A stretch of DNA of 64,000 nucleotides from Salinisphaera japonica YTM-1 (GCF_003788585.1 NZ_AYKG01000045.1:62001-126000); one strand, 5' to 3'; numbered from the stretch's first letter, positions 27,691 to 43,423 are shown. The notes: generated by a model from the letters alone, not told the origin. Numbers and translations: made by a program.

Positions 27691-28746
27691 TTAACGGACT
27701 GCGTTGTTCATTTCGTTAACCACGAACGCGCCGTATTTCTTGAAATCGAACGTCGACTCGAACAATTGCCGACCGGCACGCGCAATCTCGCGGCGCTCGT
27801 CCTCGGCTGTGGCGTAATGGCGAATTTTGTCGATCAGATCATCGAGATCGTCGAAACAGACAAAATGCTCGTTTTCTCGTGCACCGCCCGGCAATGCCAG
27901 ATCCCGAATCGATGGGCTGCTCAGGCAGAAGGCCGACAACAGCCATAGCTCCCAGTGGCGATGGGTAAACTCGCCCAGACCGTCCAGCGCCAGATTCACG
28001 CGCGAGTCGCGAATGGCCTGCACGTACCGATCCGTATCGAGCGCGGGTGCGGCGACGTCGGGGGCGACATCTGTGTCGATATCGTGCGGCTGAATACCGC
28101 CGATGGCCGTTATCTCCGGCGCGGCCAGCACCCGTCGCCAGACCTCGGGGCGCAACGGCGAACTTTGCGTGCCGTAGAAACAGGCGTCATACAACGCCGT
28201 CTCGCTGGGCTTGTCGAAACCGAAGGTCTGCGGCACCAACCGGGCCACGTTATGACGCCGCGCCGGAATCAACGGACAATCAAGCCAGGCAAGACGAATC
28301 TTGTCTCGGTTGTGGTTCGTGATCGAATATCGCGCCAAGTTGGCGTAATGCTCGCGCTTGAACACCACATCGAATCGATCCAAGCACTGATCGTCAACCA
28401 TGAAACCGGCTTGGGGATTACTGATGAAAAACGCTTTCGCCAGCCCCTCGATCCCGCTGACGAAATCAAACTCGCGAACGTTGGTGCCTTCACCCGATGA
28501 GTCAGCCTTGCTACAGATAATTAGATAATCGAAGCGTTGACCGATCTCCCGCCGGTGTCGATAGAGCCAGGCAAGACTGGCCTCGGTGACGTCGAAACTG
28601 GCGTGCAGCGCTGAGCGCATGAAACCGCACTGGCCACGCAGCTTGCGATAGCGGTTCTTCTTGCGTCGCAGGCGCGTAATCAATCCAGCGCCGATATCGG
28701 GATAGTGACGGCCGATATACAACACACGCACCGCGTCGTTATTCAT
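27691..28746 (-). CDS. Glycosyltransferase-like protein (GT-B, group 1-like C-terminus)
   Basis: The 351-aa protein starts VRVLYIGRHYPDIGAGLI. It has DYLIICSKADSSG, the central ACFYGTQSSPLRPEVW and a C-terminal HWELWLLSAFCLSSPS followed by HFVCFDDLDDLIDKIRHYA. The end matches the pattern of glycosyltransferases that scan a donor site, but the usual EX7E motif is not plain. It is convergent with the capsule-like gene (21 bp apart). I call it a probable surface-glycan transferase with low certainty about activity. Confidence 0.55.
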   Translation of the reverse strand: MNNDAVRVLYIGRHYPDIGAGLITRLRRKKNRYRKLRGQCGFMRSALHASFDVTEASLAWLYRHRREIGQRFDYLIICSKADSSGEGTNVREFDFVSGIEGLAKAFFISNPQAGFMVDDQCLDRFDVVFKREHYANLARYSITNHNRDKIRLAWLDCPLIPARRHNVARLVPQTFGFDKPSETALYDACFYGTQSSPLRPEVWRRVLAAPEITAIGGIQPHDIDTDVAPDVAAPALDTDRYVQAIRDSRVNLALDGLGEFTHRHWELWLLSAFCLSSPSIRDLALPGGARENEHFVCFDDLDDLIDKIRHYATAEDERREIARAGRQLFESTFDFKKYGAFVVNEMNNAVR

Positions 28747-28825: not shown

Positions 28826-29680
28826 TCACAAGCCAACCGCGTGTCGCACATGATCCCACGCCGTGCCGTCGGCCAGCTCGTGGCGCTGCCATTGTTTCCA
28901 GGCCAGGTCGTGGGCCCACACGCCTCGATCCGGTCGCACTATCGATGCCTCGATATCATGACCGCCCATCGGCCATGCCATCGACACATCGCTTTCCACG
29001 ATGATCGGCACGCCGGCCAGAACCGCCTCGATACCGGTGTTCGAACTGTACGTGATCACGCAGTCGACCGCGGCCATATCCTCGGCCAGAGAATGCGCCG
29101 AGGCCACGGCGTGTGCCGGACATTCGGTGAAACCAAGCGGATGCGGTCGATAAATGACCTGGCGGCCCATCGCATGAAGCCGAGCGGCACGCTCGGCCGC
29201 CCATTCGTCAACTTGCACGCCGTTGAGCGATATATCGCCGGGGACCTGGCCAATCAGAAGCACACGGCCGGTATCCCGATGCTGCCACTCACGCCATAGA
29301 TGACCGAAGTGCTGCTCGAAGCGCACGCCGTTATCGCCGGCCGGCCCATACCGACCGTGATTGTTGAGCCCGTCGAAGGCCAGACTTGCCCAGCCGCGAC
29401 GCGGCGGCAAGAACCCGCGCTCGAGAATCAGCGCGTGCTGGCCCTCACTTTGCGCCAGGCGATCGAACATCGCGGGTTCATGCCAGCCCCAGAACACATG
29501 CACATCAGCGTCCAAGGGGCGGCCCGGCCGATACAGTCTGGTTTTGATGTCGTGTCGACGAAACCCCTGGCGTAGGGCGACCGACCAGTCGATCTTTTCG
29601 CGTTTGCGCCGGACACGACGCCGGGCCCGCCGTGTCCACGGCCAGCCCGGCGGATAGGTATGAAAACAAACGTCGATCAT
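28826..29680 (-). CDS. Capsule-synthesis-like or GT-B-like protein
   Basis: A 284-aa protein: VHVFWGWHEPAMFDRLA, HALILERGFLPPRRGWASLAFDGLNNHG, VLLIGQVPGDISLNG, RQVIYRPHPLG and VITYSSNTGIEAVLAGVPIIVE. The RPHP and SSNTGIEAVLAG blocks are seen in capsule-export/capsule-synthesis proteins that recognise a nucleotide donor. Its ATG overlaps the stop of the GT29-like gene (ATGA), so the two are coupled. The acceptor is unknown. Confidence 0.62.
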   Translation of the reverse strand: MIDVCFHTYPPGWPWTRRARRRVRRKREKIDWSVALRQGFRRHDIKTRLYRPGRPLDADVHVFWGWHEPAMFDRLAQSEGQHALILERGFLPPRRGWASLAFDGLNNHGRYGPAGDNGVRFEQHFGHLWREWQHRDTGRVLLIGQVPGDISLNGVQVDEWAAERAARLHAMGRQVIYRPHPLGFTECPAHAVASAHSLAEDMAAVDCVITYSSNTGIEAVLAGVPIIVESDVSMAWPMGGHDIEASIVRPDRGVWAHDLAWKQWQRHELADGTAWDHVRHAVGL

Positions 29681-30780
29681 GTGTGTAGATGGAGGCGAGG
29701 ATCGGACTCGATGAGATATCGCGCATAGCGACGTTCGGCATCAAAGTCATGATCGGTCGACATGGGCCGTGTCGGCTGGCTGTCGGAGCGTGTATCGCCG
29801 AAATCGAAACCGTAGATATCAAGCCGGGCGCAGGGTGACGCGGCCAATAGGTCGAGGGCTTTCATGCCGGTCGAGGCTGTTTTTCCCAGCCGCTGCGCCA
29901 GTGCGCGATCTCGTCGTTTCGATAATATGTGCAGTCGTCGTGTCGCAAACATCCAGGCCGGGATGTTACGCATCATTTTTGGTCGTCGGCTGACCCAGAC
30001 CAGGCGCTCGACGCCCCGTCGCTCGGCGGTCGTGCGGCTCATCGGCAGCGCGGTGATGAGCCAATCGGTGCGCCGACCGTGCGAACGCTCGCTTACGAGC
30101 ACGCCGCGGTTGCAACGTATCACGCAGTCGGCGGCGTCAATGGCCGGGCCGTAGGCCTGCTTCGCCAGGGACGCTGCGCCGCCAACCAGCGCGACACGTT
30201 GGCCGGCCAGCTCTCGCAACAGCTTGTCTTGTGAGCGCGGTCTTCTGACAAGCCGCCAGAGACGCCCGAGCAGACGTTGACGACGACGGGACCAAACGGC
30301 GTGCCGCCGCTGGCGTGCCGACAGCACGGCCATCTCGCCTGCAAGCGCCGGACTGATCGGTGCGGTGACGATCACGCAGTACTCGTGCGGTGTATCCGCG
30401 ACCAATGCCGCGTGGCCGAACACGCTCGCGATCCGCTCACACCACCACGTGCTGTCATGAACACTCGCGAATTCGTTATGCCCGTCGACTAACGGACGGC
30501 TGGAATATCGTGTCGAAATACGAAAGACACCGTGGCGACCAACACGGCGCGCCGCATCCAGCGCCCGCGCCAGCGCGTCCGCATCCAGGTATTGCAGCAC
30601 GCGGTCACTGGCGACCAGCGTGTCGTTGGCGTCGCTCGCGGCCGTATCGTCATCGACGCCGTTGGCGGCATCGTCGAGATGCTGGGCTACCAGCCGCGAG
30701 AGACCGAGGGCACTCGCAGTCGCCTGCACCCATGCCGGCGCCGTATCGAGCGGCTGCTGTGACAGACACGGATCAAGCAT
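29677..30780 (-). CDS. GT29-like sialyltransferase with methyltransferase-like N-terminus (copy 1)
   Basis: A 367-aa two-part protein. Residues 1-140 look like a truncated SAM-methyltransferase fold (DTLVASDRVLQYLDADALAR, FRISTRYSSRPLVDGHN). Residues 190-367 carry sialyltransferase-type motifs: RVALVGGAASLAKQAYGPAI with DCVIRCNRG (motif L), STGMKALDLLAASPC with LDIYGFDFG (motif S), and HX4E in HDFDAE near the end. GT29 enzymes use CMP-sialic acid, which fits the CMP-sugar module at 33.9-38.1 kb. The ATG at 30780 is preferred; a GTG lies at 30786. It overlaps the GT4 gene upstream. A paralogue is at 42257. Confidence 0.75.
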   Translation of the reverse strand: MLDPCLSQQPLDTAPAWVQATASALGLSRLVAQHLDDAANGVDDDTAASDANDTLVASDRVLQYLDADALARALDAARRVGRHGVFRISTRYSSRPLVDGHNEFASVHDSTWWCERIASVFGHAALVADTPHEYCVIVTAPISPALAGEMAVLSARQRRHAVWSRRRQRLLGRLWRLVRRPRSQDKLLRELAGQRVALVGGAASLAKQAYGPAIDAADCVIRCNRGVLVSERSHGRRTDWLITALPMSRTTAERRGVERLVWVSRRPKMMRNIPAWMFATRRLHILSKRRDRALAQRLGKTASTGMKALDLLAASPCARLDIYGFDFGDTRSDSQPTRPMSTDHDFDAERRYARYLIESDPRLHLHT

Positions 30781-31822
30781 CGCCACGCGTTATGTCTTGA
30801 TAGATCGTTTGATAAGCATCAGCCATTCGGTCGACGTTGAACGCCCGGGCGGTCTCCTGCCCGGCCACAGCCATGCGATGTGCCCATTCCGGCGCCTCGA
30901 ATAAGCGAAGCAAAGCTTGTTCAAGCGCGCGCGAGTCGCCCGCCGGCACCAGCAAACCGTTGACGTCATGCTCGATGAACTCGGGCAGGCCGTCGACCGC
31001 CGACGCGATGACGGGCAAGCCAGCCCGCATGGCGTCCAGCGCAGCGCCGCCGATACCCTCGTGGCGTGAGGGTAGAACGAACGCGTCGGCCGCGGCCAGA
31101 TAATCGCCGACGTTATCAACAAAGCCGGCGAACTCGATGCTGGCTTTGCCGTCCCGTGCCTGGCGCTCGAATCGTTCGCGGTCTCGTCCAGCGCCGACGA
31201 GCACGAAATGCATGCCACTCTGGCGGGCGGCGAGGCCGTGCGCTGCCTCGATCAGACACGACTGGCCTTTCTGCGCATCCACAAGCGCCGCCACGTTGAC
31301 CACCACATAAGACGACCCCCAGCGTGCCCGCAGACGGTCTCGTATCTCGGGGTTCACCGCCAGATCACTGAGCGCACTGTAAACCGTCGTCGTCGGCCGC
31401 CCTGCATATGCCGCGATGACCGCGGATACCGACTTGGCAACCCCTACACACGCCGCCGCGTTCGCATACACCGCACGCGTCAGCGCGCTGTTACTCGGCC
31501 GCTTGCCCAAACGACGGGTAACAAGATAGGGCAAGCCCGAAACACGCCAGCGCAGCCAAGCCAGTTGCGCGCCTCGCGTGTCGTGCGCATGCACGACATC
31601 CCCCTGGACACACCGCAGTTTGGTCGGAAACGGTCGTGCGATGGCTTGAATATCCAGACCGGGAACATCAGCCAGGCGCTGGCCCAGGGGCTGGCCAGCA
31701 CGAACGACAGCACGCTGGGTCAAGCCACGCTGGGACAGCGCACGAATCAAGAGCTCGGTCTGTCGTTCGCCGCCGCGATACCCCCGCGAGAGATTCAGAT
31801 GACAGACGTGCGCCATAGACAT
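30773..31822 (-). CDS. Family 4 glycosyltransferase
   Basis: The 349-aa GT-B protein begins AHVCHLNLSRGYRGGERQTELL. It then shows VVHAHDTRGAQLAWL, TVYSALSDLAVNPEIRD, VVVNVAALVDAQKGQSCLIEA, HFVLVGAGRDRERFE, ADAFVLPSRHEGIGGAALDAMRAGLPV and GLPEFIEHDVNGLLVPAGD. The RHEGIGGAALDAM stretch is the donor-site EX7E region. It is the first gene of a tightly overlapping minus-strand run with the GT29-like and capsule-like genes. Confidence 0.88.
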   Translation of the reverse strand: MSMAHVCHLNLSRGYRGGERQTELLIRALSQRGLTQRAVVRAGQPLGQRLADVPGLDIQAIARPFPTKLRCVQGDVVHAHDTRGAQLAWLRWRVSGLPYLVTRRLGKRPSNSALTRAVYANAAACVGVAKSVSAVIAAYAGRPTTTVYSALSDLAVNPEIRDRLRARWGSSYVVVNVAALVDAQKGQSCLIEAAHGLAARQSGMHFVLVGAGRDRERFERQARDGKASIEFAGFVDNVGDYLAAADAFVLPSRHEGIGGAALDAMRAGLPVIASAVDGLPEFIEHDVNGLLVPAGDSRALEQALLRLFEAPEWAHRMAVAGQETARAFNVDRMADAYQTIYQDITRGDA

Positions 31823-31888: not shown

Positions 31889-32815
31889 TTAAGCCCCGCC
31901 CAGCACCAGTCGCTGCAATTCGCTGTGCTGTGTGCCGGCCATATGTCGATACGGCGCGGCGTCCTGATAACCGGACGGCGGGAACAGAAAACTCGTTGGG
32001 GTGACGAACTGGTAAAACCCGACGACCCTCGGCTTGCCGCCGGATTGAACCCGGCTGCCAAAATGAAAGCAGCGACTGGTATCGGCAAACACAGCGGTGC
32101 CGGCCGGGCCGGTTATTTCATGTTGGCTGGCTGTTCCCACCGTCTTGTTGGCCGTGTCGTCGCTGACGCGATAGCCCTTGCGGCCATAGGTATAGCCGAT
32201 ATTCGAGCGCAGCGTATCCGAGGCCTGGGCCTCCATGAGCGTCAGCGGACCACTGGCGGCGTCGACATCGCTGGCATAGACGAACACCTTGAGTTGGGTC
32301 GTATCATCCCAGTCACAGTGATAGAGCTGACTGGCGTGATGCTGCGACGGCGAATTGTCGGATTTCCAGACATCCATCTTCGCCAGCACCGGCACGACGC
32401 CTAGATAGGCCGATACCGCCGCGATCACGTCCTCGCGCAGTGGGAAACGCAAAAACGGCGAGTCGTCAGGCAGACAAGCCGTATCCAGATAACCCTGCTG
32501 CAAGAAATCCTTGTTGCCCGGGGCCATGCCCGACTCACGCTCGGCCACGATCTGGCCAGCGGCGGTGACGATCTCGCCAATCTCATCGAACGTTCCGGGC
32601 GCGAACAAGGCAAAGCCTTTATCGCGAGCGATTGCATGCGCCAGATCCGTCTGTTGGAACTCGGCGGCAAGCTGTTCTCGCCGGGTCAATGATGCTCCCT
32701 GGCGTGCCCCGAGGCGCTTGGCATACCACTGACGCCGGCGCGGCGTCCCTTTGACGAAATAATCCCACAACGCCTTGTTATGGCCTTGTTTATTCGTGCG
32801 AAAGAGGTTTTTCAT
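31889..32815 (-). CDS. Phytanoyl-CoA dioxygenase (PhyH)-like oxygenase
   Basis: A 308-aa double-stranded beta-helix protein: QLYHCDWDDTTQLKVFVY holds the HxD iron ligands, GPLTLMEAQASDTLRSN follows, and AVFADTSRCFHFGSRV supplies the distal His. The family uses Fe(II) and 2-oxoglutarate for hydroxylation. In a glycan cluster it may hydroxylate a sugar, fatty acid or other substituent, but the substrate is unknown. It stands alone on the minus strand, with 66 bp to the GT4 gene downstream and 117 bp upstream. Confidence 0.72.
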   Translation of the reverse strand: MKNLFRTNKQGHNKALWDYFVKGTPRRRQWYAKRLGARQGASLTRREQLAAEFQQTDLAHAIARDKGFALFAPGTFDEIGEIVTAAGQIVAERESGMAPGNKDFLQQGYLDTACLPDDSPFLRFPLREDVIAAVSAYLGVVPVLAKMDVWKSDNSPSQHHASQLYHCDWDDTTQLKVFVYASDVDAASGPLTLMEAQASDTLRSNIGYTYGRKGYRVSDDTANKTVGTASQHEITGPAGTAVFADTSRCFHFGSRVQSGGKPRVVGFYQFVTPTSFLFPPSGYQDAAPYRHMAGTQHSELQRLVLGGA

Positions 32816-32932: not shown

Positions 32933-33775
32933 TCAGATTCGCCATCCCACGGCCATCGCGACGCGCTTGAGGCTTTGCCCGAAGCGCTTGGACGCCGGGT
33001 CATCGAACCGCTGCGCGCTGTAGGCGAACGCACCGGTGTGATCATCGTAGTGACAGTCACGATGATCGACGATCTGGCTTTGCCAGGCTTCAGCGGCAAC
33101 ACGCCAGTGATGGTTCGGCTTGCGGCGGCCTTTTTCAGCCGCGACCTGGCGCACAGCCAGCCGGGCCTTGAGTTGCTCCGGGTCCCGCGCGCGAAAATGC
33201 TGCATCAGAATCCGCCGCCGGGCGAGCGGCCCGCGTGGTGTGGGCCAGTGTTCACTGCCCTGCCAATGCAGGTGCGGGTGATGACGCATGAAACGCAACT
33301 CTTCATAGGTTGCCCGGTAATACCGGCGACGCTCGGTGATGGGCCGGTCGCGGTCGGCCAGGCTTTCCTGACCGGCTTGCCAGGCCGCCCAATCGAGATC
33401 GGTGTACTCATAAAACAGGTTGATGGCGTTGACACGACAATCCAGCGGCGACACGGCACGCAGAAATGCGCGCGGGTCTTGCGGATAGTGCTCATCGCCG
33501 TCGAGACGGCACCACCAGTCCCCGGACGAGGCCTCTTCTCGCAGACGATAGAACGGAATCATGCGCAGATCGTTGTGAAAGGCGCCGGTATAACGGCCGA
33601 TGCAATCAATGCGCCCCGGGTATGCCCGCGCCACGCGCTCAATGACATCGACCGTATCGTCGTCGCTGTCGTTGTCCAGAATCGCGATGCGATCACACCA
33701 GGCCAGGGCCGCTTCAAGGGTCTGCCCGACGATATCGCCCTCGTTTTTCAAAACCATCAGACCGAAAATCTTCAT
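32933..33775 (-). CDS. Family 2-like glycosyltransferase
   Basis: A 280-aa protein beginning MKIFGLMVLKNEGDIVGQ, with IAILDNDSDDDTVDVIERVA, the metal-binding WWCRLDGDEHYPQDPR, and INLFYEYTDLDWAAW. This is the short GT2 type that starts with a lone N-terminal KNE motif. I chose the ATG at 33775 (GAGGTGG upstream); the longer frame to 33853 adds unlike Arg-rich residues. It is divergent from the oxidoreductase gene, with 99 bp between. Confidence 0.8.
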   Translation of the reverse strand: MKIFGLMVLKNEGDIVGQTLEAALAWCDRIAILDNDSDDDTVDVIERVARAYPGRIDCIGRYTGAFHNDLRMIPFYRLREEASSGDWWCRLDGDEHYPQDPRAFLRAVSPLDCRVNAINLFYEYTDLDWAAWQAGQESLADRDRPITERRRYYRATYEELRFMRHHPHLHWQGSEHWPTPRGPLARRRILMQHFRARDPEQLKARLAVRQVAAEKGRRKPNHHWRVAAEAWQSQIVDHRDCHYDDHTGAFAYSAQRFDDPASKRFGQSLKRVAMAVGWRI

Positions 33776-33874
33776 CACCACCACCTCATTCCTGACCCGC
33801 ACCGCGGACACTGCTACCCTTCCCGGCACGTTCGGCCGACGCCGTACCCTCATTCATGGATGCCAGCGGACGCA

Positions 33875-34969
33875 ATGATAGATAAAGTCAAGATTTTTGG
33901 CGCCGGCTCGATCGGCAATCATATGGCCCACGCCGCGCGCACGCTGGGTTGGTCGGTAGATATCTGTGACGTGGATTCCGACGCCCTGGCGCGTACGCGC
34001 GATCAGATCTATCCCTCACGCTATGGCAGCTGGGACGACTCGATCGGCTTGTACGATACGGCTACGGTGCCCGCCGGCGGCTATGATCTGATCGTGATCG
34101 GCACGCCGCCCGATCTACACATGCCACTTGCGCTCACCGCACTCGAGGAACGCCCCGCCGCGATCCTGATCGAAAAGCCCGCCAGCACGCCGCTCTCCGA
34201 TCTGGATCAGCAGGTGCATGACCGCGCGCTGGAACTGGGCGTGCGGGTGTTTGTCGGCTATGACCACGTCGTCGGCCAGGCCAGTCATCGATTCGGTGAG
34301 TACGTCGCCACAGGCGATACCGGCACGACACGTACGCTGGACGTGGAATTCCGCGAATACTGGGGCGGCATCTTCGCTGCCCATCCCTGGCTGGCCGGCC
34401 CGGCCGACAGCTATCTGGGCTACTGGAAGCGTGGTGGCGGCGCGCTCGGCGAGCACTCTCATGCGCTCAACATGTGGCAGCACATGGCGCATCTCGTGGG
34501 CGCCGGCCGCGTGGTCCAGGTATCCGCGATGCTGGATATCGTATCCGACGGCCAAGCCGAATATGATCGCCTGGCCGCACTACATCTGGTTACCGAAAAC
34601 GGGTTGTGCGGCCGCGTGGTTCAGGACGTTGTCACCCAGCCAACGAGAAAATGGGCACGGCTTCAGGGCGAGCACGGCCATGTGGAATGGATCGCCGGCC
34701 ACGAGCCCGGTGCCGATGCGGTCATACATGCCACCGGCAGCGCCCCGGGTGAAACCGAGCTATTTCACAAGACGCGGCCCGATGATTTCATCGCCGAGCT
34801 CGAGCACATCGAGCGTCATGTGGCCGAGGCGACACCATCGCCGCTGGATCTGTCCCGCGGGCTGGACACGATGTTGGTCATTGCCGCGGCCCATCGCTCG
34901 CATCGCGAGCAGCGCGCGGTACGCATCGATCATCAACAGGGCTACAACATAAAAAGCCTAACCGCCTGA
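33875..34969 (+). CDS. Gfo/Idh/MocA-family oxidoreductase of the nonulosonate module
   Basis: A 364-aa protein: N-terminal Rossmann fold (KVKIFGAGSIGNHMAHAARTLG, VDICDVDSDALARTRD), the diagnostic EKP motif in ILIEKPASTPLSDLD, and the central EYWGGIFAAHPWLAG followed by GGGALGEHSHALNMWQHM. The family reduces or oxidises sugars or nucleotide sugars with NAD(P). It starts the plus-strand module and lies 67 bp before the NeuB-type gene, so it may prepare or modify the sugar precursor. An ATG at 33860 is an alternative start. Confidence 0.78.
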   Translation: MIDKVKIFGAGSIGNHMAHAARTLGWSVDICDVDSDALARTRDQIYPSRYGSWDDSIGLYDTATVPAGGYDLIVIGTPPDLHMPLALTALEERPAAILIEKPASTPLSDLDQQVHDRALELGVRVFVGYDHVVGQASHRFGEYVATGDTGTTRTLDVEFREYWGGIFAAHPWLAGPADSYLGYWKRGGGALGEHSHALNMWQHMAHLVGAGRVVQVSAMLDIVSDGQAEYDRLAALHLVTENGLCGRVVQDVVTQPTRKWARLQGEHGHVEWIAGHEPGADAVIHATGSAPGETELFHKTRPDDFIAELEHIERHVAEATPSPLDLSRGLDTMLVIAAAHRSHREQRAVRIDHQQGYNIKSLTA

Positions 34970-35036
34970 ACCCAATTAAAAGACGCCCGGTTCGCTTGCG
35001 ACAGCCGAGCGGTTGCATATCGAGGAGACTACAACA

Positions 35037-36677
35037 ATGCGTCAGTCGTACGATTTCAACGATCTGTTCATCTTCGAGATGGCCAATAATCATCAGGGCG
35101 ATGTACAGCACGGGCTGAAGATCATTCGCGAGATGGGCTCGGCCGCGCGCGACCACGGGGTTCGCGCCGCCGTGAAGTTCCAGTTTCGAGATCTGGACAG
35201 CTTTATCCACCCGGATTTCCGTGATGCATCCGAGCCCAAACACATCCAGCGCTTCCTCTCGACCGAATTGACGCTCGATGCGTTCGGCGTGATGTTCGAC
35301 GAGGTCCGGGCTCAAGGCATGCTGACCATGTGCACGCCTTTCGACGAGCGCTCGGTCGACCATATCGAGGCGATGGGTTTCGATATCATCAAGGTCGCCA
35401 GCGCGTCGTGTCAGGACTGGCCGCTGCTTGAACGGATCAGCGAAGCCAACCTGCCGGTGATCGTATCCACCGGCGGTCAGGACATCGCCTCGATCGATAA
35501 TATATCGAGCTTCTGTCATCACCGCGGCATCGATCATGCGCTCATGCATTGTGTCGCGCTGTATCCCACGCCGGACGCGCACTGCCAGCTCAACCAGATC
35601 GACCGGCTCAGTGAGCGCTATCGCGACACCACGATCGGCTGGTCGACCCATGAGGCGCCAGACGATACGGACGTCGTGATCGCCGCGTACGCCAAAGGCG
35701 CACGCATCTTTGAAAAACACGTCGGCGTGATTGATGGCCCCGTGACCGCGCTAAACGCGTATTCGGCCACCCCCGAGCAGGTTCGTGCATGGCTGGCCGC
35801 CTATCAGAAGGCTGTCGCGCTGTGCGGTAACGATATCCACGACACGCACCACACGCAGGCCGAACGAGACGCGCTGGCGGCACTGCAGCGCGGTGTTTAC
35901 GCTCGTGCCCCGCTGACCGCCGGCCAGGAGATCGGCCTCGACGATGTCTTTTTCGCAATGCCACTGCACGACGGCCAGCTGATTTCCGGGCGCTTCAAGG
36001 CCGGCACGGTGGTCAATCAAGAGGTGGAGGCACAAGGCGTAATCGATGAGGGCGCCACCGATATACCCAGCGATCCGGATCGCAAGGTCATTCAATCATC
36101 GCTGCACCAGATCAAGGCGATGCTCAACGAAGCACGAATCCCGCTGAATTCCGACTTTAAGGTCGAGTATTCGCATCATCACGGCGTCGAAAATTTCCGT
36201 GAGATCGGCGCCGTGTTGATCGACGTCGTCAATCGCAGCTATTGCAAGAAGATCGTGGCGCAGCTGCCCGGCCAGTATCACCCGGCCCACTTTCACAAGC
36301 TCAAGGATGAAACGTTCATTGTGGTCTACGGCACACTTCATCTGGAGGTCGACGGCCATCACAAGATTCTCTCGCCGGGCGAGACGGCCGTGGTTCAGCC
36401 GGGCGTGTGGCACCACTTCTGGACCGAGACCGGCGTGATTTTCGAAGAGATATCGTCGACGCATAAAAACGACGACTCCTTCTACAAGGACAAACGCATC
36501 AATCGCATGCCGCGTGCTGATCGCAAGACCATCGTCGATCACTGGGGCCGCTTCACGCTGGGCGACAAAAACGATTCGCGCGACGAGATCTGGACGCCGC
36601 GCCGCCCCGCCGCCGATGAGCCGGCGCCCAGTGACGCCGAGGATGAGGAAACCGGCGCAGCCACAGTCGATCCTTGA
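35037..36677 (+). CDS. neuB: NeuB-type nonulosonic-acid synthase with SAF and cupin domains
   Basis: A 546-aa protein. Residues 1-265 are the NeuB TIM barrel: FIFEMANNHQGD, AAVKFQFRDLDSFI, TMCTPFDERSVDHIEAMGFD, PVIVSTGGQDIASI, CVALYPTPDAHCQLNQI, GWSTHE and ARIFEKHVGV. Residues 275-345 are a SAF (antifreeze-like) domain (RGVYARAPLTAGQEIGLDD). From about 350 there is a long tail with a cupin: GQYHPAHFHKLKDETFIVVY with GETAVVQPGVWHHFW, resembling lyxose/mannose-isomerase cupins. NeuB enzymes condense PEP with a hexosamine or mannose (phosphate). Start ATG 35037 follows GAGGAG. Confidence 0.88.
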   Translation: MRQSYDFNDLFIFEMANNHQGDVQHGLKIIREMGSAARDHGVRAAVKFQFRDLDSFIHPDFRDASEPKHIQRFLSTELTLDAFGVMFDEVRAQGMLTMCTPFDERSVDHIEAMGFDIIKVASASCQDWPLLERISEANLPVIVSTGGQDIASIDNISSFCHHRGIDHALMHCVALYPTPDAHCQLNQIDRLSERYRDTTIGWSTHEAPDDTDVVIAAYAKGARIFEKHVGVIDGPVTALNAYSATPEQVRAWLAAYQKAVALCGNDIHDTHHTQAERDALAALQRGVYARAPLTAGQEIGLDDVFFAMPLHDGQLISGRFKAGTVVNQEVEAQGVIDEGATDIPSDPDRKVIQSSLHQIKAMLNEARIPLNSDFKVEYSHHHGVENFREIGAVLIDVVNRSYCKKIVAQLPGQYHPAHFHKLKDETFIVVYGTLHLEVDGHHKILSPGETAVVQPGVWHHFWTETGVIFEEISSTHKNDDSFYKDKRINRMPRADRKTIVDHWGRFTLGDKNDSRDEIWTPRRPAADEPAPSDAEDEETGAATVDP

Positions 36678-36678
36678 T

Positions 36679-37371
36679 ATGACGATCCAGGCGGCGGTGT
36701 TCGACTTCGACGGCACGCTGGTTCGATCCAATGCCATCAAGGCTGAGGCGTTTTCGCAAACCGCCGCGGCCCACGGTATTGACGTATCCCGACTGGATGC
36801 CATACGTGCAGGCCACCCGCACGCCGATCGCTACGAGATATTCGAGCGGCTGGTCGCTGATCTCGGGCCGGCGTGTGCCGGGTCGGCCGAACGACTGGTC
36901 GAAAGCTACGGCGCGATCGTTCAGAACGCGATCGCCCGGTGCGAGTGGGTACCGGGCGCGCTCGACGCGCTTGCAACCCTGGCCGAGCGCGGTATCGCGC
37001 TCTACGTGAACTCGGCCACGCCCACCGTCCCGCTCGTCGACGCCGTCGCCAGCCGTATGGCCACCGATCGATTCGTGGCGATCTACGGCGGCCCCGCGTC
37101 CAAACAGGACAACCTGGCCCATATCGCAGCAACGGCGGATCTGCTGGCCAGCCAGATCGTGATGATCGGCGACGGCGAGGATGATCGTCTGGGCGCGGCT
37201 GAATTCGGCTGTCATTTCATCGGCGTGGTGGCTGATACTTCAGCCTACGGGCTTCCAGCCCGTCGTTTCAGCCATGTCCCTGATGTGGCGGTGTCTGATC
37301 TGACGACCATCGCCGATTGCATCGCGCGGATGGAATCCGGGGACACCCAACGGAGCAGCGTCAATGTATGA
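36679..37371 (+). CDS. HAD-superfamily phosphatase of the nonulosonate module
   Basis: A 230-aa HAD hydrolase: FDFDGTLVRSN (motif I with both Asp), LYVNSATPT (motif II), SKQDNL (Lys) and MIGDGEDDRLGAAEFG (motif IV). It starts one base after the NeuB stop and overlaps the CMP-sugar synthetase by 8 bp. In 9-phosphate pathways such an enzyme removes the phosphate from the nine-carbon acid (as with Neu5Ac-9-P or Kdn-9-P). That role is inferred from position. The ATG at 36679 is the start. Confidence 0.83.
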   Translation: MTIQAAVFDFDGTLVRSNAIKAEAFSQTAAAHGIDVSRLDAIRAGHPHADRYEIFERLVADLGPACAGSAERLVESYGAIVQNAIARCEWVPGALDALATLAERGIALYVNSATPTVPLVDAVASRMATDRFVAIYGGPASKQDNLAHIAATADLLASQIVMIGDGEDDRLGAAEFGCHFIGVVADTSAYGLPARRFSHVPDVAVSDLTTIADCIARMESGDTQRSSVNV

Positions 37372-38080
37372 CAGTCAACGTATTCTGGCGGTAGTGCCTG
37401 CCCGCGGCGGCAGCAAGGGCGTGCCGAAAAAGAATATTCAGCCGATACAGGGCGTGCCGATCGTGGCCCGGGTCGGTCATCTGATACAGCAGCTGCCCGA
37501 GATCGACCGCGCGGTTGTTTCGACCGACGATCCCGTGATCGCCGAAACCGCAGAACAAAGCGGGCTGGCGGCACCCTGGATGCGCCCGGAGTCGTTGTCG
37601 GGTGATCGAATCGGCGATCTCGATGTCCTCACCCACGCTTTGCAGGCCTGCGAAACCGCTGACGCCACGCGTTACGACATCGTGCTCATGTTGCAGCCAA
37701 CCTCTCCGATGCGCACCGCGGCCCACGTCCGCCAGACTTATCAAACGCTTGTCGATGAGAATCGAGATGCGGTGTGGACCGTCTCCGCCACAGATCCGAA
37801 ATATCACCCGCGCAAGCAGCTTGAGTGGGACGAGACCACCCTGCGCTATCACAGCCAGGACGGCGGCCAGGTTATCGCGCGCCAGCAGCTCGACACGCTG
37901 TACCACCGTAACGGCGCGGCCTATGCCTTCACGCGGGACTGTCTTGTCGAACAGCGCGCTATTCTCGGTCACAACAGCGGCGCGGTCGTCACTGAGGATA
38001 TGGTCAGCATCGACACCTGGTTTGATTTTCGTCTCGTCGAATTCCTGCTCGAGGATCGACGCACAAGCCAAACGCTCTGA
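37364..38080 (+). CDS. neuA: CMP-nonulosonate/acylneuraminate cytidylyltransferase
   Basis: A 238-aa enzyme: ILAVVPARGGSKGVPKKNI at the N-terminus (CTP-binding P-loop), VVSTDDPVIAETAEQ, VLMLQPTSPMRTAAHV and LYHRNGAAYAFTRD. It activates a sialic-acid-like sugar as its CMP derivative. With the upstream NeuB-cupin and HAD genes it forms an operon-like set in the order synthase, phosphatase, activase. The product (Neu5Ac, Kdn, or a legionaminic/pseudaminic-type acid) cannot be read from sequence. Confidence 0.88.
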   Translation: MYDSQRILAVVPARGGSKGVPKKNIQPIQGVPIVARVGHLIQQLPEIDRAVVSTDDPVIAETAEQSGLAAPWMRPESLSGDRIGDLDVLTHALQACETADATRYDIVLMLQPTSPMRTAAHVRQTYQTLVDENRDAVWTVSATDPKYHPRKQLEWDETTLRYHSQDGGQVIARQQLDTLYHRNGAAYAFTRDCLVEQRAILGHNSGAVVTEDMVSIDTWFDFRLVEFLLEDRRTSQTL

Positions 38081-38102: not shown

Positions 38103-38786
38103 ATGGCTCTGCTGGGTCGCGCTGTTCGCTGGATCGTGCGTTACAAAGTACCGGCCATGGCGCCCACGCCGCGGCACGTCTTGCGTGATGATCTGCTCAT
38201 CGGGCACGGCTCGCAGCGCTCGTGCTACGTACATCCCGCCGATCGACAACGGTGTATCAAGGTGCCGAAGCACCCCGCCCACCCGGAGGCCCAGCAAGCC
38301 AATCTGGTCGACTCGCACTATGCGCGATCGCTCGACCGGCGCGGCGTGTCGCACGCGCACCGCGCGCGTATCTACGGCTGGGCACCCACGACTCAGGCCG
38401 ATGGGCTGGTTGTCGAGCGCATTTGCAACGACGACGGCACGCCGGCGATCAAACTCCAGCACGCCCTGAAATACGGCATCGTGCAGCGCGATGAGGCCGA
38501 GGCATTGCTCGGCGAGCTCAGGCATTGGGTGCTGACGAACCACATCGCGGTGCACGATCTCAGCCCGGGCAATCTACTCGTAAAGCAGACCAGCGCCGGC
38601 AATACCCTGGTCCTGATCGATGGTATCGGCGGGCAGAAGATAAAGCTCAAATTTTTGCTCTATCTCTACAGTCCCCGTTTTGCGCGCGCGATCACGCGTC
38701 GGCGCTGGCCGGCTTTCGAGAAGAAAATCCAGGCCCGGCTGGATCGGGTGACGCCCGTGCAGCCGTCTCAGAACCTCGACGAATAG
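38103..38786 (+). CDS. YrbL-type putative kinase
   Basis: The 227-aa protein has the YrbL/PhoP-network layout: HVLRDDLLIGHGSQRSCYVHP, then CIKVPKHPAHPEAQQANL, the catalytic-loop-like HDLSPGNLLVKQ and LIDGIGGQKIKLKFLLYLY. These proteins resemble LPS kinases. It lies 22 bp after the CMP-sugar synthetase, so it probably belongs to the same transcript and may phosphorylate a core sugar. Alternatives are a sugar kinase or an inactive kinase-like protein. The start is the ATG at 38103. Confidence 0.75.
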   Translation: MALLGRAVRWIVRYKVPAMAPTPRHVLRDDLLIGHGSQRSCYVHPADRQRCIKVPKHPAHPEAQQANLVDSHYARSLDRRGVSHAHRARIYGWAPTTQADGLVVERICNDDGTPAIKLQHALKYGIVQRDEAEALLGELRHWVLTNHIAVHDLSPGNLLVKQTSAGNTLVLIDGIGGQKIKLKFLLYLYSPRFARAITRRRWPAFEKKIQARLDRVTPVQPSQNLDE

Positions 38787-38805: not shown

Positions 38806-40293
38806 TCAAGACTTCGCCGAGGTTTCGGACAAGCCGGGGCCTGAATCGTCGATCAAACCCGCCAGCTCGGCGCGCATGGCGCCCACCAGTTCAGCGCGCG
38901 TGCGCTGCGACAAAGCGGCCGCGCGATCGTCGTTGGCGCCGATGAACCAATGCCGGGCCTGTGTTTGGATAAAACACTCGAAGTCGGCCCGCACATCCGC
39001 CGGGCTCTTCTTTGTCAGTGTTTGCACCACGGCCTTGAGCGAGTCGAGCGTATGGACCGCCGGGCTACTGGGACAGGCGGAATGCCATGTCGGCACGAAC
39101 GTTAGACCCGGGATGTTCTGTTGCAGGCCTTCAAACACCGATGAGCCGTTGCACGAGGCCACAAGTCGCGCACCGGCAAGCAGTGGCGCCGACGGCGTGA
39201 ACGCATGAACAAGACGCACGTTGTTCAGCGCGCCAATATCGGTGTACAAGCTCCGCCGTGCGTAGTGAAGACAGCGTAGATCCGGGCGCCGGTCGCCGAG
39301 CTGGCGGGGATGCTCTTTAACGGCCAGCACCCAGCCGGCGGGTAATGCGGCGGCCAGCGCGCGAATCGCCAACCGCTGATCCTGATAGATTCCGGCTTCG
39401 GGAACGGTCGTACGTTCGGGTTGATAATGCAGCGCGAAGTAGACATACGGCTGTGTCGGCGCCTGGCTATCGGCGTGGTTATTGAGATAGGTGATATCCG
39501 CGCGGCGATCCCGATCCCGTCGCAACGTATATAAAAACAGGCGCCACCAGGGTTCTCGATAATAATGGTCTTCGAGAAAGATTCGGCGGCGCTTGAATAA
39601 CCGTCGCAGAATCTTGAGCGACAAGCGCAGGCCCATTGGTTGCATGGCCGTTTTCTCTGCGGCCTGATTGATCTCTCTCGACCGCGCCAGCCGCCCCGAA
39701 ACCTGGGATATCGCATCCAGCACCTCGGCCGGATCGACGGGATGCCTGGCCTCGATGCAGGGGGCCTGACGCGCCATCAGTTCCGTATCGAAGAACATGC
39801 CGTCGGGCGTCTGCGTACGTTTGAAGATATAGCACGGTATGCCGAGGCGCCGGCATACGTGGAAAAACACGATATGCCAGGGAAAATGCGGCGTATGCGC
39901 GAATAAGACGACCAAACCGTGACTTGCCGACACAAAACGCGTTTCCAGCCGCTCGACCAGATTCCAGAAATAGTGCTCGATCTCGCGTGCTGTCAACGGC
40001 GTTAGAAACACGCGATCAAGCGAGCGCTCGAACGCCCAGCGTGCCTCGTTATAAAACGCCTCATCGGCCGCGCCGACGGGCCGCCGATCCGGCGCGGCGC
40101 GAGCTGCTCGCTGGTAGGGTTGCCAATCAAAATAAGTGACGGCCCGCAGCGCCTCGTCATGATCAACGCGTGCCAGCCCCGAACGTCCGCCAACCCAGAG
40201 CGTATCGGCGCCTGCCAGCCCCATCAGCATTTCCTGCATGATCGGATAGTCGGCGAAATCCGCACCGAAAACCGTCAGCGGCCGCTGTGTCAC
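38806..40293 (-). CDS. Capsule-polysaccharide-synthesis-like protein (copy 2)
   Basis: A 495-aa paralogue of 26152-27669: GADFADYPIMQEMLMGLAG, VLFAHTPHFPWHIVFFHVC, FALHYQPERTTVPEAGIY, LAVKEHPRQLGDRRP and ASCNGSSVFEGLQQNIPG. The two are alike along their length, so they arose by duplication, yet lie about 12 kb apart on opposite strands. It has a GTG start that overlaps the hldD stop by 4 bp, and it is convergent with the YrbL-type gene, 19 bp away. Probably a transferase acting on a related acceptor. Confidence 0.7.
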   Translation of the reverse strand: MTQRPLTVFGADFADYPIMQEMLMGLAGADTLWVGGRSGLARVDHDEALRAVTYFDWQPYQRAARAAPDRRPVGAADEAFYNEARWAFERSLDRVFLTPLTAREIEHYFWNLVERLETRFVSASHGLVVLFAHTPHFPWHIVFFHVCRRLGIPCYIFKRTQTPDGMFFDTELMARQAPCIEARHPVDPAEVLDAISQVSGRLARSREINQAAEKTAMQPMGLRLSLKILRRLFKRRRIFLEDHYYREPWWRLFLYTLRRDRDRRADITYLNNHADSQAPTQPYVYFALHYQPERTTVPEAGIYQDQRLAIRALAAALPAGWVLAVKEHPRQLGDRRPDLRCLHYARRSLYTDIGALNNVRLVHAFTPSAPLLAGARLVASCNGSSVFEGLQQNIPGLTFVPTWHSACPSSPAVHTLDSLKAVVQTLTKKSPADVRADFECFIQTQARHWFIGANDDRAAALSQRTRAELVGAMRAELAGLIDDSGPGLSETSAKS

Positions 40294-41237
40294 GATTCGC
40301 GGGTCTTGGCTATCGCGTCGAGATAACGTGGCACGCCCACCTCGACCGGCATGAATGCTGCGGTATATCCGGCACGACGAAGTGCGGCGATATCGGCTTC
40401 TGTAAAGCTTTGATACCGACCCTGCAGATGCGCCGGGAACGCCACGTAGTGTTTATTGCCCTGCCCGTGCCAGCCGATCACGGCATCGGCCACGTCGTTG
40501 AATGTTTGAGACCGGCCGGTGCCGCAGTTGAATATGCCCGACACCTGCGGGTTATCCATTAGCCACAGGTTGACGGCGACGACGTCATCGACGTGGATGA
40601 AGTCACGTCGCTGCTCCCCGTTTGCGTAACCGTCGGTGCCTTCGAAGAGCTTGCACTGCCCCGTGGTTTCGATCTGGGCCGAGAAATGACGCGCGACGCT
40701 GGCCATGCCGTCCTTGTGGCCTTCACGCGGGCCATAGACGTTGAAATAGCGTAGCCCGGCAACCTGTGACGCGCTCGTGCGTGCACGGACGTACTGATCG
40801 AACACGAACTTTGAAAACGCATACATATTGAGCGGGTGCTCGGCCTCGCGTGTCTCCACGAAATCCGGGCCCATGCCGTAGACCGAGGCCGAGGAGGCAT
40901 AGATCAAGGGCACGCTTCGAGCGGTCGTCCACTCATACAGCGAGCGCGAATATTCAAAATTGCGGGCCATGACGAAGCGCCCGTCCCACTCAGTGGTATC
41001 CGAACAGGCGCCTTGATGGAAAACGGCTTCTACCGGCCCGAAATCATGACCACGGCGCACAAGATCGATGAAATCGTCGTACTCGCGATAATCGGTGAAA
41101 TCACAATCCGACAGATTGAGGCATTTCCGGCCTTCATAGAGATCGTCAACGACCAGAATATCGGTCATGCCTCGCGCGTTGAGGGCGGCAACCAGGTTGC
41201 TACCAATGAAGCCGGCGCCGCCGGTAACTATGATCAT
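40290..41237 (-). CDS. hldD: ADP-L-glycero-D-manno-heptose 6-epimerase
   Basis: A 315-aa SDR: MIIVTGGAGFIGSNLVAAL, VDDLYEGRKCLNLSDC, VFHQGACSDTTEWDG, the catalytic SSASVYG and YAFSK, LRYFNVYGPREGHKDGMAS and DFIHVDDVVAVNLW are all HldD-specific blocks. It finishes ADP-heptose synthesis for the LPS inner core, after HldE at 22.7 kb. The ATG at 41237 gives the canonical MIIVTGG start; an open frame to 41339 adds 34 residues that do not fit. Confidence 0.95.
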   Translation of the reverse strand: MIIVTGGAGFIGSNLVAALNARGMTDILVVDDLYEGRKCLNLSDCDFTDYREYDDFIDLVRRGHDFGPVEAVFHQGACSDTTEWDGRFVMARNFEYSRSLYEWTTARSVPLIYASSASVYGMGPDFVETREAEHPLNMYAFSKFVFDQYVRARTSASQVAGLRYFNVYGPREGHKDGMASVARHFSAQIETTGQCKLFEGTDGYANGEQRRDFIHVDDVVAVNLWLMDNPQVSGIFNCGTGRSQTFNDVADAVIGWHGQGNKHYVAFPAHLQGRYQSFTEADIAALRRAGYTAAFMPVEVGVPRYLDAIAKTRES

Positions 41238-41359
41238 ATCGTTCCCATGTCTTTCAAATACAGCGTCAGTGGCCCAGCGTTGCGTGCCGCGACGGCCGAT
41301 GGCTCGGCGCCGCCCGTGCGCGTCGTACGGACACAACAAGAAGGCGCGCCGCCATGCGC

Positions 41360-42238
41360 TCAGCCGGCACGCAGTTCGACGAGCTCAAACTCCGGGCGCT
41401 CGAACAAGGGCCCGAGCTTGCGATCGAATTCTGGCGGATCGAATCGGCCGGCCCCGCCGGTGTGGCAATTCGTCAGTTCACCGACCCGTATTTCCTCGCC
41501 GTTGGAATACAGATCAATCCGGATAGGCGACAGATTCTCGGCTAAGCGCTCGGCCACCGCGATCATCTCATCCAGATTTTCCGGCGGCGGCTGAACGGGC
41601 GCAAGCGGGTGCTGGTTCTGGGTGAAATCAAAGGGCTGCCAATCCGGCGAGTAGATACGGCGTTGATGAAGATCAAACCGCCCGACGTCGACCTGGATCA
41701 TCTTAACCCGGCCGAAAAAACAGAAAAGTTTGTAATCGGTCGGGCCCTCGTCGCCATAGTCGACGAACTGCTCGACGATCAGACGCTGCTGTAATCCGAG
41801 ATAATTACGCTCGCGGCTATGCCGGTAATAATCCAGTGCCAGCCATGCCTCAAGCTGCTGCATCGGCACCGGATCGCGCGCTGACCTTCGAATGAAGACC
41901 TGCCCGCTGGCATGGGCGGGCTTGACCACGCAGCACGCAGGAAAATCGAATTCGTGCAAGGCGGCGACGGTATCGATGATACCGAGGGTGGGAATCACGT
42001 ATCGCGATCCGACCGTTTCTGCAACAAATGTCTTGAGCTGGATCTTGTCGCTGACATAACGTCTTTTCTCGTCACCGAGGTGATCGATGCGCAGCCGCAG
42101 CAGATGCTCGTTGAACGTGCGCGGGCCGCGGAGTCGAGGCCAGTAGTGATGCCGGCGGCGAAAGTTGACAATGTCATGGTATTTATCGCCCCACGGACTG
42201 TAAGGCAGAAGACCGGCAAGTGTTCGACGCAACCCCAT
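41360..42238 (-). CDS. TupA-like ATP-grasp protein
   Basis: A 292-aa protein of the polysaccharide-associated ATP-grasp family: RGPRTFNEHLLRLRIDHLG, DKIQLKTFVAETVGSRYVIPTLG, CCVVKPAHASGQVFIRR, VEQFVDYGDEGPTDYKLFCFFGRVKM and IRIDLYSNGEEIRVGELTNCHTGG. These enzymes probably add an amino acid or similar group to a glycan through an acyl-phosphate. It lies 122 bp upstream of hldD and 18 bp downstream of the second GT29-like gene. Confidence 0.8.
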   Translation of the reverse strand: MGLRRTLAGLLPYSPWGDKYHDIVNFRRRHHYWPRLRGPRTFNEHLLRLRIDHLGDEKRRYVSDKIQLKTFVAETVGSRYVIPTLGIIDTVAALHEFDFPACCVVKPAHASGQVFIRRSARDPVPMQQLEAWLALDYYRHSRERNYLGLQQRLIVEQFVDYGDEGPTDYKLFCFFGRVKMIQVDVGRFDLHQRRIYSPDWQPFDFTQNQHPLAPVQPPPENLDEMIAVAERLAENLSPIRIDLYSNGEEIRVGELTNCHTGGAGRFDPPEFDRKLGPLFERPEFELVELRAG

Positions 42239-42256: not shown

Positions 42257-43423
42257 TTATTCATGGAGGGTCAATCTCTTGTCCTGGCTGGCCCACTGGC
42301 GAACGATTTTCGCTTCCGCGATGAAGTCGTGATCGGCCGACATGGAACCCGTCGGTTCGCTGGCTGAAGCGCTCTGCGCGAAATCAAACCCATAGACATC
42401 AAGTTGTCGACAGTCGGCTGCCAGCAACAAATCAATCGCTTTTATGCCGGTTGAGGGTACCTTACCGATCATTTGTCGCAAACGCGCGATCCGACGGTCA
42501 GCGTACAACAGCAGACATCCGGCAAATGCCGGCCAGGCCGGCAGATTCCGCATCGTGCGCTTACTTCGACTGGACCAGATTACAAGTTCGATGCCGCGGG
42601 CGCGGGCCGAGGCATGCGTTAGCGGTAGCCCCGTGACCAGCCAGTCGGTGCGATAGCCGTGCGATGCCGCGTTCACAACGATAGCGCGGTTGCACCGAAC
42701 GACCACATCAGCGGCATCGATCATCGTGCCGTAGCGACGATCAATCAGCGATTGGGCATTGCCGACGAGTGCAATTCGTTTGCCGGCCAGCCGGGCCAAC
42801 GCGGCGCGTTCACTTATCGGCGGGCGCAGAAAACGTGCGACAGCGCCGATCGCGCGGGTCAGACGGCGCTGGCGAACCCGGCGGTTTCTATAACCTGTCT
42901 TGATGGCATCGAACGTCCGTATAAACGCTGGACTCGGGCACCAGCTCACGAATAGACACAGCCCCTGCATACCGCAGGCCAACGGCCAGATCGCGCCGTA
43001 TGCGCCAGCCAGATCTTGGCGCCACGCCGCCTCGTTGCGAAGCGCGCGATGGGCATCTTCACCGTCGACAACCTCGCCGGCATAACGGGTGCGCACGAGC
43101 AGCAGCGCATGCGACGACAACCGCGCCAGAGCGTCGATAGTGTCCGGAATTTGCTTCAACGACTGTCTTTCCAGCACACAGTTGCACACCACGAGCGCGG
43201 ATGGGTCTGTTTCGACGGCGCCCGGCAGGCTGGCGCCATGCCCCGCCACCGGCACCGTCAACCCGGCCAGCGTGTCTTCCAAACGACCCTGATCCGCATC
43301 CGGTGAAAACAGAATCACACGTTGGGCACCAGTTTCATCAACGCTGGCCTGCACCAAACGAACCAGACTCGCCTGGCGTGCGCGCTGTGCCCCCGTGCTC
43401 GTATGTTTAATACGTTTGATCAT
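42257..43423 (-). CDS. GT29-like sialyltransferase with methyltransferase-like N-terminus (copy 2)
   Basis: A 388-aa paralogue of 29677-30780. The N-terminal 180 residues look like a degraded methyltransferase fold (ALVVCNCVLERQSLKQIPDT, LLLVRTRYAGEVVDG). The C-terminal half has RIALVGNAQSLIDRRYGTMI with VVRCNRAI (motif L, about 217-247), STGIKAIDLLLAADC with LDVYGFDFA (motif S, about 324-348) and HDFIAE (HX4E, 365-370). Both copies also share RNLPAW/RNIPAW before motif S. It may use the CMP-activated sugar from the 35-38 kb module. It lies 18 bp upstream of the ATP-grasp gene. Confidence 0.75.
   Translation of the reverse strand: MIKRIKHTSTGAQRARQASLVRLVQASVDETGAQRVILFSPDADQGRLEDTLAGLTVPVAGHGASLPGAVETDPSALVVCNCVLERQSLKQIPDTIDALARLSSHALLLVRTRYAGEVVDGEDAHRALRNEAAWRQDLAGAYGAIWPLACGMQGLCLFVSWCPSPAFIRTFDAIKTGYRNRRVRQRRLTRAIGAVARFLRPPISERAALARLAGKRIALVGNAQSLIDRRYGTMIDAADVVVRCNRAIVVNAASHGYRTDWLVTGLPLTHASARARGIELVIWSSRSKRTMRNLPAWPAFAGCLLLYADRRIARLRQMIGKVPSTGIKAIDLLLAADCRQLDVYGFDFAQSASASEPTGSMSADHDFIAEAKIVRQWASQDKRLTLHE

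Follow-up and report, generated by a model that had tools for sequence, protein, structure and literature searches.

A NeuB-cupin fusion in a Salinisphaera lipopolysaccharide-core locus and a possible phosphate route to a Kdn-type acid

The module and the closest described systems

Synthesis of 2-keto-3-deoxynononic acid (Kdn) by Kdn-9-phosphate (Kdn-9-P) synthase, a phosphatase and CMP-Kdn synthetase is an established route in Bacteroides thetaiotaomicron and Prymnesium parvum (PMC6200933), and in NeuB of Neisseria meningitidis (NmNeuB, also SiaC; PDB 1xuu) Arg314 positions the N-acetyl group of N-acetylmannosamine (ManNAc) (PMC6795526). Among the cupin-fold D-lyxose isomerases, the Thermofilum enzyme (TsLI) contacts sugar and metal through K62, H75, H77, K86, E88, H143, E156 and D163 (PMC8378251), and bacterial GT29 proteins are already known and have been proposed as ancestors of the human sialyltransferases (PMC5811610). 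The DNA studied here, a stretch of 64,000 nucleotides from the salt-loving bacterium Salinisphaera japonica YTM-1 (NZ_AYKG01000045.1:62001-126000, on contig C45; hereafter the window), carries at positions 33875-38080 a module that resembles these systems in several respects: its genes encode a Gfo/Idh/MocA-family oxidoreductase (Gfo/Idh), a NeuB-type synthase with SAF and cupin domains (NeuB-cupin), a HAD phosphatase and a CMP-nonulosonate synthetase.

An earlier note on this DNA had read these four plus-strand genes in this order, and Pfam and NCBIfam matches confirm it (Table 1), as the spacing confirms the tight packing of the last three, with a gap of 1 nt between NeuB-cupin and HAD and an overlap of 8 nt between HAD and the synthetase. 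Nor is the gene set a product of chance, since its relatives recur together elsewhere: 154 stretches of our genome collection encode relatives of NeuB-cupin, and among the best 80 of these, on which the locus counts are based, Gfo/Idh relatives also adjoin the fusion in 20, from several phyla, often directly upstream and mostly scoring 330-430 bits. We consider the module best explained by a 9-phosphate route to an acid of nine carbons that has no N-acetyl group and is activated with CMP, namely Kdn or one closely related to it, for use by transferases of the lipopolysaccharide (LPS) core or another surface glycan; this reading seems to us somewhat probable, and its substrates and reactions, cupin activity included, are those that the sequences would predict.

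The fused synthase and its cupin domain

The NeuB-SAF part of the fusion covers about residues 1-335 and the cupin about residues 345-497. The best PDB match of the NeuB-SAF part, and its closest solved relative, is 3g8r (E 1.5e-85, 42% identity), an uncharacterised "probable SpsE" of Chromobacterium violaceum whose deposited chain of 350 aa has no cupin, unlike the enzyme described here. An AlphaFold model of NeuB-cupin (pLDDT 86.7) fits the same structure in Foldseek with a TM score of 0.95 to the target over 336 columns; the SAF domain, which had been proposed earlier, found no match in the Pfam search and is borne out by this fit. In an alignment with standard NeuBs, the residues E14, K47, Q49, K119, H205 and H228 of the phosphoenolpyruvate (PEP) site of NeuB (1xuu) are kept, so that fold and PEP site are common to both enzymes. 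In contrast to NmNeuB, the Salinisphaera protein carries an additional cupin and has Met308 at the position of Arg314, with Met or Phe across its family, whereas most NeuB/PseI-type homologues retain the arginine; phospho-sugar-type (NANS-like) homologues lack it as well, and such homologues with C or S there occur in the class. The two also belong to separate clades: in a maximum-likelihood tree, the NeuB-cupin proteins together with two cupin-less relatives make up one side of a 100/100 branch, which parts them from the sampled NeuB, PseI and NANS-like enzymes. The score with the equivalog model for Neu5Ac (N-acetylneuraminic acid) synthase (NnaB, TIGR03569) is 132 bits against a cut-off of 400, and that for PseI 117 bits against 340. 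A pseudaminic or legionaminic acid (Pse/Leg) pathway was rejected on such sub-threshold scores and on the absence of PseB, PseC, PseG and PseH partners from the module.

The cupin matches the D-lyxose isomerases 2y0o (Bacillus subtilis), 3kmh (Escherichia coli z5688) and 7nzo (Thermofilum) in a sequence search of the PDB, and Foldseek places the modelled domain on 2y0o (TM 0.69 to the target) and also on 7nzo and 3kmh/3mpb. The isomerase-like tail described in the earlier note is thus recovered by both family search (PF07385) and structure prediction, which together identify it as a full domain of the D-lyxose/D-mannose-isomerase type by homology and predicted fold. Seven of the eight TsLI contacts are kept, K405, H418, H420, K423, E425, H459 and E471 corresponding to K62, H75, H77, K86, E88, H143 and E156, and in an alignment of 33 sequences each of the seven is either invariant or conserved to 90% or more. 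The metal ligands (H, H, E, H) and the catalytic Lys/Glu of lyxose isomerase are therefore present, and this conservation, while no proof of activity, fits a functional enzyme domain better than a degenerate tail. That the cupin is active and feeds the synthase appears quite possible, if short of probable. Compared with the solved lyxose isomerases, with which it has the fold, every metal ligand and the majority of the sugar contacts in common, the domain is fused to a synthase, does not keep D163 and may act on a phosphate; its score for the D-lyxose isomerase equivalog (NF051472) is 31 bits, against a cut-off of 350.

Route, sugar precursor and competing products

A phosphatase gene accompanies the CMP synthetase in 56 of the 68 related loci that have this enzyme and is absent from all 12 that lack it, strong grounds for thinking that the product of the synthase is phosphorylated. 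The phosphatase takes the form of a separate HAD protein, of a HAD domain at the C-terminus of the synthetase itself (43 loci, with the DxDG and DD motifs kept in 41) or, in the Gemmatimonadales locus L007, of a fusion in which NeuB, cupin and HAD make up one protein of 760 aa. The window has both a NeuB core with its PEP-site residues and a partner phosphatase, as expected of a 9-phosphate-type synthase, and the 9-phosphate route, suggested earlier from gene order, is well supported by the HAD gene at 36679 and by these counts. Its CMP synthetase, a CTP_transf_3 enzyme, is closer to PseF/NeuA than to KdsB: the PseF score lies below the 206-bit cut-off, the KdsB score is lower, and the best PDB match is the CMP-Neu5Ac synthetase 6ifd (E 6e-30). 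We regard it as very probable that an ulosonate is made here through a phosphate route and then activated with CMP.

As to the sugar precursor, profile searches of the 3.26-Mb genome (99.93% complete) found neither NeuC nor NanE. The sole Epimerase_2 protein, at about 18.2-19.2 kb of the window, is a non-hydrolysing WecB (260 bits, cut-off 210; NeuC model 57 bits), and the one protein of the AGE (N-acylglucosamine epimerase) family most resembles D-mannose isomerase (522 bits against a cut-off of 600, with 20 bits for the AGE model). A NeuC/ManNAc pathway was rejected on these grounds, and the lack of NeuC that had been noticed in the vicinity holds genome-wide. In 50 genomes that encode the fusion, NeuC exceeded its cut-off in 12, NanE in none and neither did so in 38, counts that refer to the NeuC and NanE models only and to genomes whose completeness is not given.

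Lyxose isomerases convert 2-hydroxy aldoses to ketoses and back, and the free 2-hydroxyl group that such an enzyme requires is present in mannose 6-phosphate (Man-6-P) and missing from ManNAc-6-phosphate (ManNAc-6-P). The absence of Arg314 does not decide by itself, since NANS-like enzymes lack it too; taken with the absence of NeuC and NanE, the 2-hydroxyl requirement and the published Kdn-9-P route, it argues against ManNAc and makes Kdn the most economical product. On balance, then, the acid is probably Kdn or a close relative, and the deaminated, Kdn-like product offered as a possibility in the earlier note has been strengthened by these comparisons. The parallel with the B. thetaiotaomicron and P. 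parvum pathway extends to the logic of synthase, HAD phosphatase and CMP synthetase (in B. thetaiotaomicron BT1714, likened here by description, BT1713 and BT1715, respectively) and to the lack of a ManNAc-making enzyme. It ends at the lyxose-isomerase cupin on the synthase, the HAD-IA type of the phosphatase and the added Gfo/Idh.

In the proposed pathway, the metal-dependent cupin would interconvert a ketose phosphate and a manno-aldose phosphate (fructose 6-phosphate, Fru-6-P, to Man-6-P) and pass the product to the NeuB domain, which would join it with PEP to give Kdn-9-P. The HAD enzyme would then take off the phosphate and the PseF/NeuA-like enzyme form CMP-Kdn; Gfo/Idh, found with only some relatives, might introduce a redox or epimerising change, and a GT29 and/or KpsC-like transferase could attach the acid to the LPS core. 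It is tempting to speculate, if only tentatively, that the fusion combines isomerase and synthase in one bifunctional protein, which would take a ketose phosphate (Fru-6-P) and PEP straight to the phosphate of a nonulosonic acid. In many bacteria, NeuB-cupin and the CMP-synthetase-HAD fusion, two genes with four catalytic domains, would then suffice to lead from central metabolism to a CMP-activated acid without ManNAc, and this acid would decorate flagellin in Lachnospiraceae and the LPS of Salinisphaera.

Several observations weigh against the Kdn pathway. TsLI D163 is replaced by Asn and is variable in the family; to our knowledge, the substrates of the known lyxose isomerases are free sugars, not phosphates; and a fused isomerase would be redundant because phosphomannose isomerase is the usual supplier of Man-6-P. 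NANS-type enzymes without Arg314 use ManNAc-6-P, so the loss of this residue is not specific to Kdn, and Gfo/Idh is dispensable for Kdn synthesis. Finally, seven other GT29 genes whose surroundings were read in a phylum sample do not lie next to nonulosonate genes.

The presence of Gfo/Idh would make sense if the surface sugar were a keto or epimer variant of Kdn, formed by this enzyme from the acid, either as such or once activated with CMP. NanOx, a Gfo/Idh enzyme, reportedly acts on sialic acid, and the recurrence of Gfo/Idh in the 20 loci described above ties it to the module; this linkage is, however, the only positive evidence, most relatives lack the gene, no aminotransferase follows, and the PDB search returned no Gfo/Idh relative at E<=0.001, so that we think such a variant unlikely. 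Alternatively, the cupin might turn D-xylulose 5-phosphate into D-lyxose 5-phosphate, from which NeuB would make a 3-deoxy-octulosonate 8-phosphate, an epimer of Kdo (3-deoxy-D-manno-octulosonic acid), to be dephosphorylated and CMP-activated. At C2-C4 the configuration of lyxose is of the manno type, and Kdo-like donors are possible for KpsC-like and GT29 enzymes. The closest solved cupins are D-lyxose isomerases, and TsLI strongly favours lyxose over mannose (PMC8378251), which counts for this eight-carbon acid; D-lyxose 5-phosphate is nevertheless an uncommon metabolite, the NeuB fold otherwise yields nonulosonates and the CMP enzyme is nearest to PseF/NeuA, with KdsB scoring lower, which leaves it unlikely, though a rival to be taken seriously. 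A Neu5Ac-9-phosphate route, in which the NeuB domain would use ManNAc-6-P on the way to CMP-Neu5Ac and the cupin would be a structural or regulatory tail, draws on human-type NANS, which also lacks Arg314 and needs a phosphatase, and on the NANS-like homologues with C or S in the class. Yet NeuC, NanE and an AGE-type N-acylglucosamine epimerase are all missing from the genome, the relatives exceed the NanE cut-off in none and the NeuC cut-off in 12 of the 50 genomes, and the conserved, intact isomerase active site would be left unexplained; we judge this route improbable. That the genes have drifted to another role, such as NeuB-cupin making a small metabolite, as four related loci pairing it with a thiamine pyrophosphate (TPP) enzyme in place of a CMP synthetase might suggest, is highly improbable for the window, whose LPS-core locus combines a CMP synthetase with a phosphatase and with transferases of the CMP-sugar type.

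Spread of the fusion and its genomic surroundings

NeuB-cupin is present in at least eight phyla, in three recurrent layouts: Gfo/Idh, NeuB-cupin, HAD and CMP synthetase, as in the window; Gfo/Idh, a CMP-synthetase-HAD fusion and NeuB-cupin (Nitrosomonas, Wenzhouxiangella, Myxococcota); and the CMP-synthetase-HAD fusion directly before NeuB-cupin, without Gfo/Idh (Bacteroidota, Verrucomicrobiota, Lachnospiraceae). Anaerosporobacter faecicola is one of the Lachnospiraceae with this two-gene form. A search for literature tying NeuB or N-acetylneuraminate synthase to a cupin found none, within a coverage that leaves out most subscription journals, and the function of the fused enzyme has apparently never been assigned before. 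If the Kdn reading is right, a compact Kdn-type route, for which family models offer no closer name than that of a NeuB-family synthase, would exist in all of these phyla, surface Kdn would be predicted on Salinisphaera LPS and a nonulosonate on the flagellins of Lachnospiraceae, gut isolates included, and the fused isomerase-synthase would be useful for enzymatic Kdn production. Flagellin and MptE/Maf-type genes often adjoin NeuB-cupin in Lachnospiraceae and other Bacillota (15 loci each overall). Because NeuB-cupin and CMP synthetase genes sit in flagellin/Maf (PF01973) loci of Lachnospiraceae (L022, L027, L033, L044, L062, L072 and others), their placement suggests that the flagellin there may be glycosylated with the acid of the module.

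The earlier note, whose interpretation stands in part, missed how widely the fused enzyme is distributed, and also two GT29 and two KpsC-like genes around the module, which are likely, from their family assignments, to encode the transferases of its acid. The GT29 assignment rests on PF00777 at 40 bits (cut-off 23), and both proteins keep the L, S and VS (H-x4-E) sialylmotifs shared by the bacterial GT29 proteins described so far, from which they differ in lying beside a nonulosonate module and in an extra, poorly modelled N-terminal region. Foldseek best matches of GT29 a are mammalian ST3Gal1, ST8SiaIII and ST6GalNAc2, for the C-terminal part of a weak model (mean pLDDT 61, N-terminal 148 residues unreliable). 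The two are the only GT29 genes of the genome, and GT29 occurs in 5 of the 369 gammaproteobacteria searched; within the genus, it is found in both genomes with NeuB-cupin, and in the only other carrier, G375, the contig breaks off exactly at the expected start of the module. GT29 proved only in part a general marker for nonulosonate loci, with one gene beside a Pse-like operon against the seven elsewhere, and it counts as supporting evidence only, because most other bacterial GT29 genes sampled lie away from nonulosonate genes. On the Kdn reading, the module would offer a natural setting in which to test Kdn transfer by bacterial GT29 enzymes. The gene beside the Pse-like operon encodes a 514-aa GT29-domain protein of an unrelated gammaproteobacterium (G272, L110:7142-14387), which adjoins an apparently complete Pse set (pseB, pseC, pseF, pseG, pseH, pseI). 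The additional N-terminal 150-190 residues of both Salinisphaera proteins look like a decayed methyltransferase domain, with no family match and low model confidence. The likeness of the second candidate family to the beta-Kdo transferase KpsC (6mgc, 8fuw) is distant and covers part of its C-terminal half; PF05159 matches four of eight family members, those of the window falling below Pfam thresholds, and other members adjoin NeuB-cupin in Patescibacteria (L015, L066) and in L019.

The surroundings place the module within an LPS-core locus, as judged from gene assignments, because hldD, hldE, waaA and many glycosyltransferase genes surround it; waaA and hldE are identities that we take from the neighbouring open reading frames (ORFs). 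The nearest relative over NeuB-cupin is S. hydrothermalis (85% identity), whose locus (L002) was found to contain neither TupA nor the second GT29 and has transposase-like ORFs (L002:11138-11940) instead of the YrbL gene. A mobile element was considered and rejected, as searches of plasmid and phage collections gave no NeuB-cupin match. A promoter and terminator scan found sites no more numerous than in shuffles. The protein at 31889-32815 was not accepted as a dioxygenase, its likeness being distant and one relative (L014) matching PF05721 at 19.5 bits, below the cut-off.

Table 1. Genes of the module and its surroundings, in window coordinates
Feature	Position	Strand	Matches and remarks
KpsC-like paralogue	26152..27669	+	45% identical to the 38806..40293 gene; same family
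Glycosyltransferase-like protein	27691..28746	-	PF13524 E 4e-12
Putative glycosyltransferase	28826..29680	-	Pfam: nothing above cut-off
GT29 (sialyltransferase-family) glycosyltransferase a, candidate acid transferase	29677..30786	-	PF00777 E 4e-10
GT4 glycosyltransferase, divergent operon	30773..31822	-	PF13692 E 1e-35
Protein distantly PhyH (Fe/2-oxoglutarate dioxygenase)-like	31889..32815	-	No own Pfam match; relatives near 7 of 80 NeuB-cupin loci
GT2-type glycosyltransferase, divergent from module	32933..33853	-	PF13704 E 3e-8
Gfo/Idh/MocA-family oxidoreductase, NAD-binding	33875..34969	+	First gene of module; PF01408 E 3.8e-9, PF22725, PF02894
NeuB-SAF-cupin fusion	35037..36677	+	ATG at 35037, stop 36677; PF03102 E 1e-40, PF07883 E 1e-11, PF07385 E 1e-9
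HAD-IA phosphatase, proposed nonulosonate-9-phosphate phosphatase	36679..37371	+	PF00702 E 2e-14; TIGR01549 above its cut-off
CMP-nonulosonate (CMP-Kdn-type) synthetase	37364..38080	+	PF02348 E 1e-18; TIGR03584 PseF 126 bits
YrbL-type (PhoP-network) kinase-like protein, module link uncertain	38103..38786	+	PF10707 E 5e-33
KpsC-like (Capsule_synth, beta-Kdo-transferase-type) candidate transferase	38806..40293	-	Family profile A3 vs 8fuw/6mgc E 2e-9
HldD (RfaD) ADP-heptose epimerase, LPS-core marker	40290..41339	-	TIGR02197 403 bits, above cut-off
TupA-like ATP-grasp protein	41360..42238	-	PF14305 E 3e-37
GT29 glycosyltransferase b	42257..43423	-	PF00777 E 3e-10

Two further gene associations were seen among the relatives. 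Another NeuB(-cupin) branch (L116:5460-12307, L113:677-8491, L114, L067, L069, L078, L079) has a TPP-dependent acetolactate-synthase-like enzyme as its neighbour and lacks a CMP synthetase, and L113 and L116 also have genes resembling glucose-1-phosphate cytidylyltransferase and CDP-glucose dehydratase. In Bacteroidota and others (L030:11490-13004, L025, L029, L031, L058, L039), the gene after NeuB-cupin often belongs to a second family, of proteins of some 500 aa that match nothing in Pfam and show weak profile similarity to the KpsC-like family.

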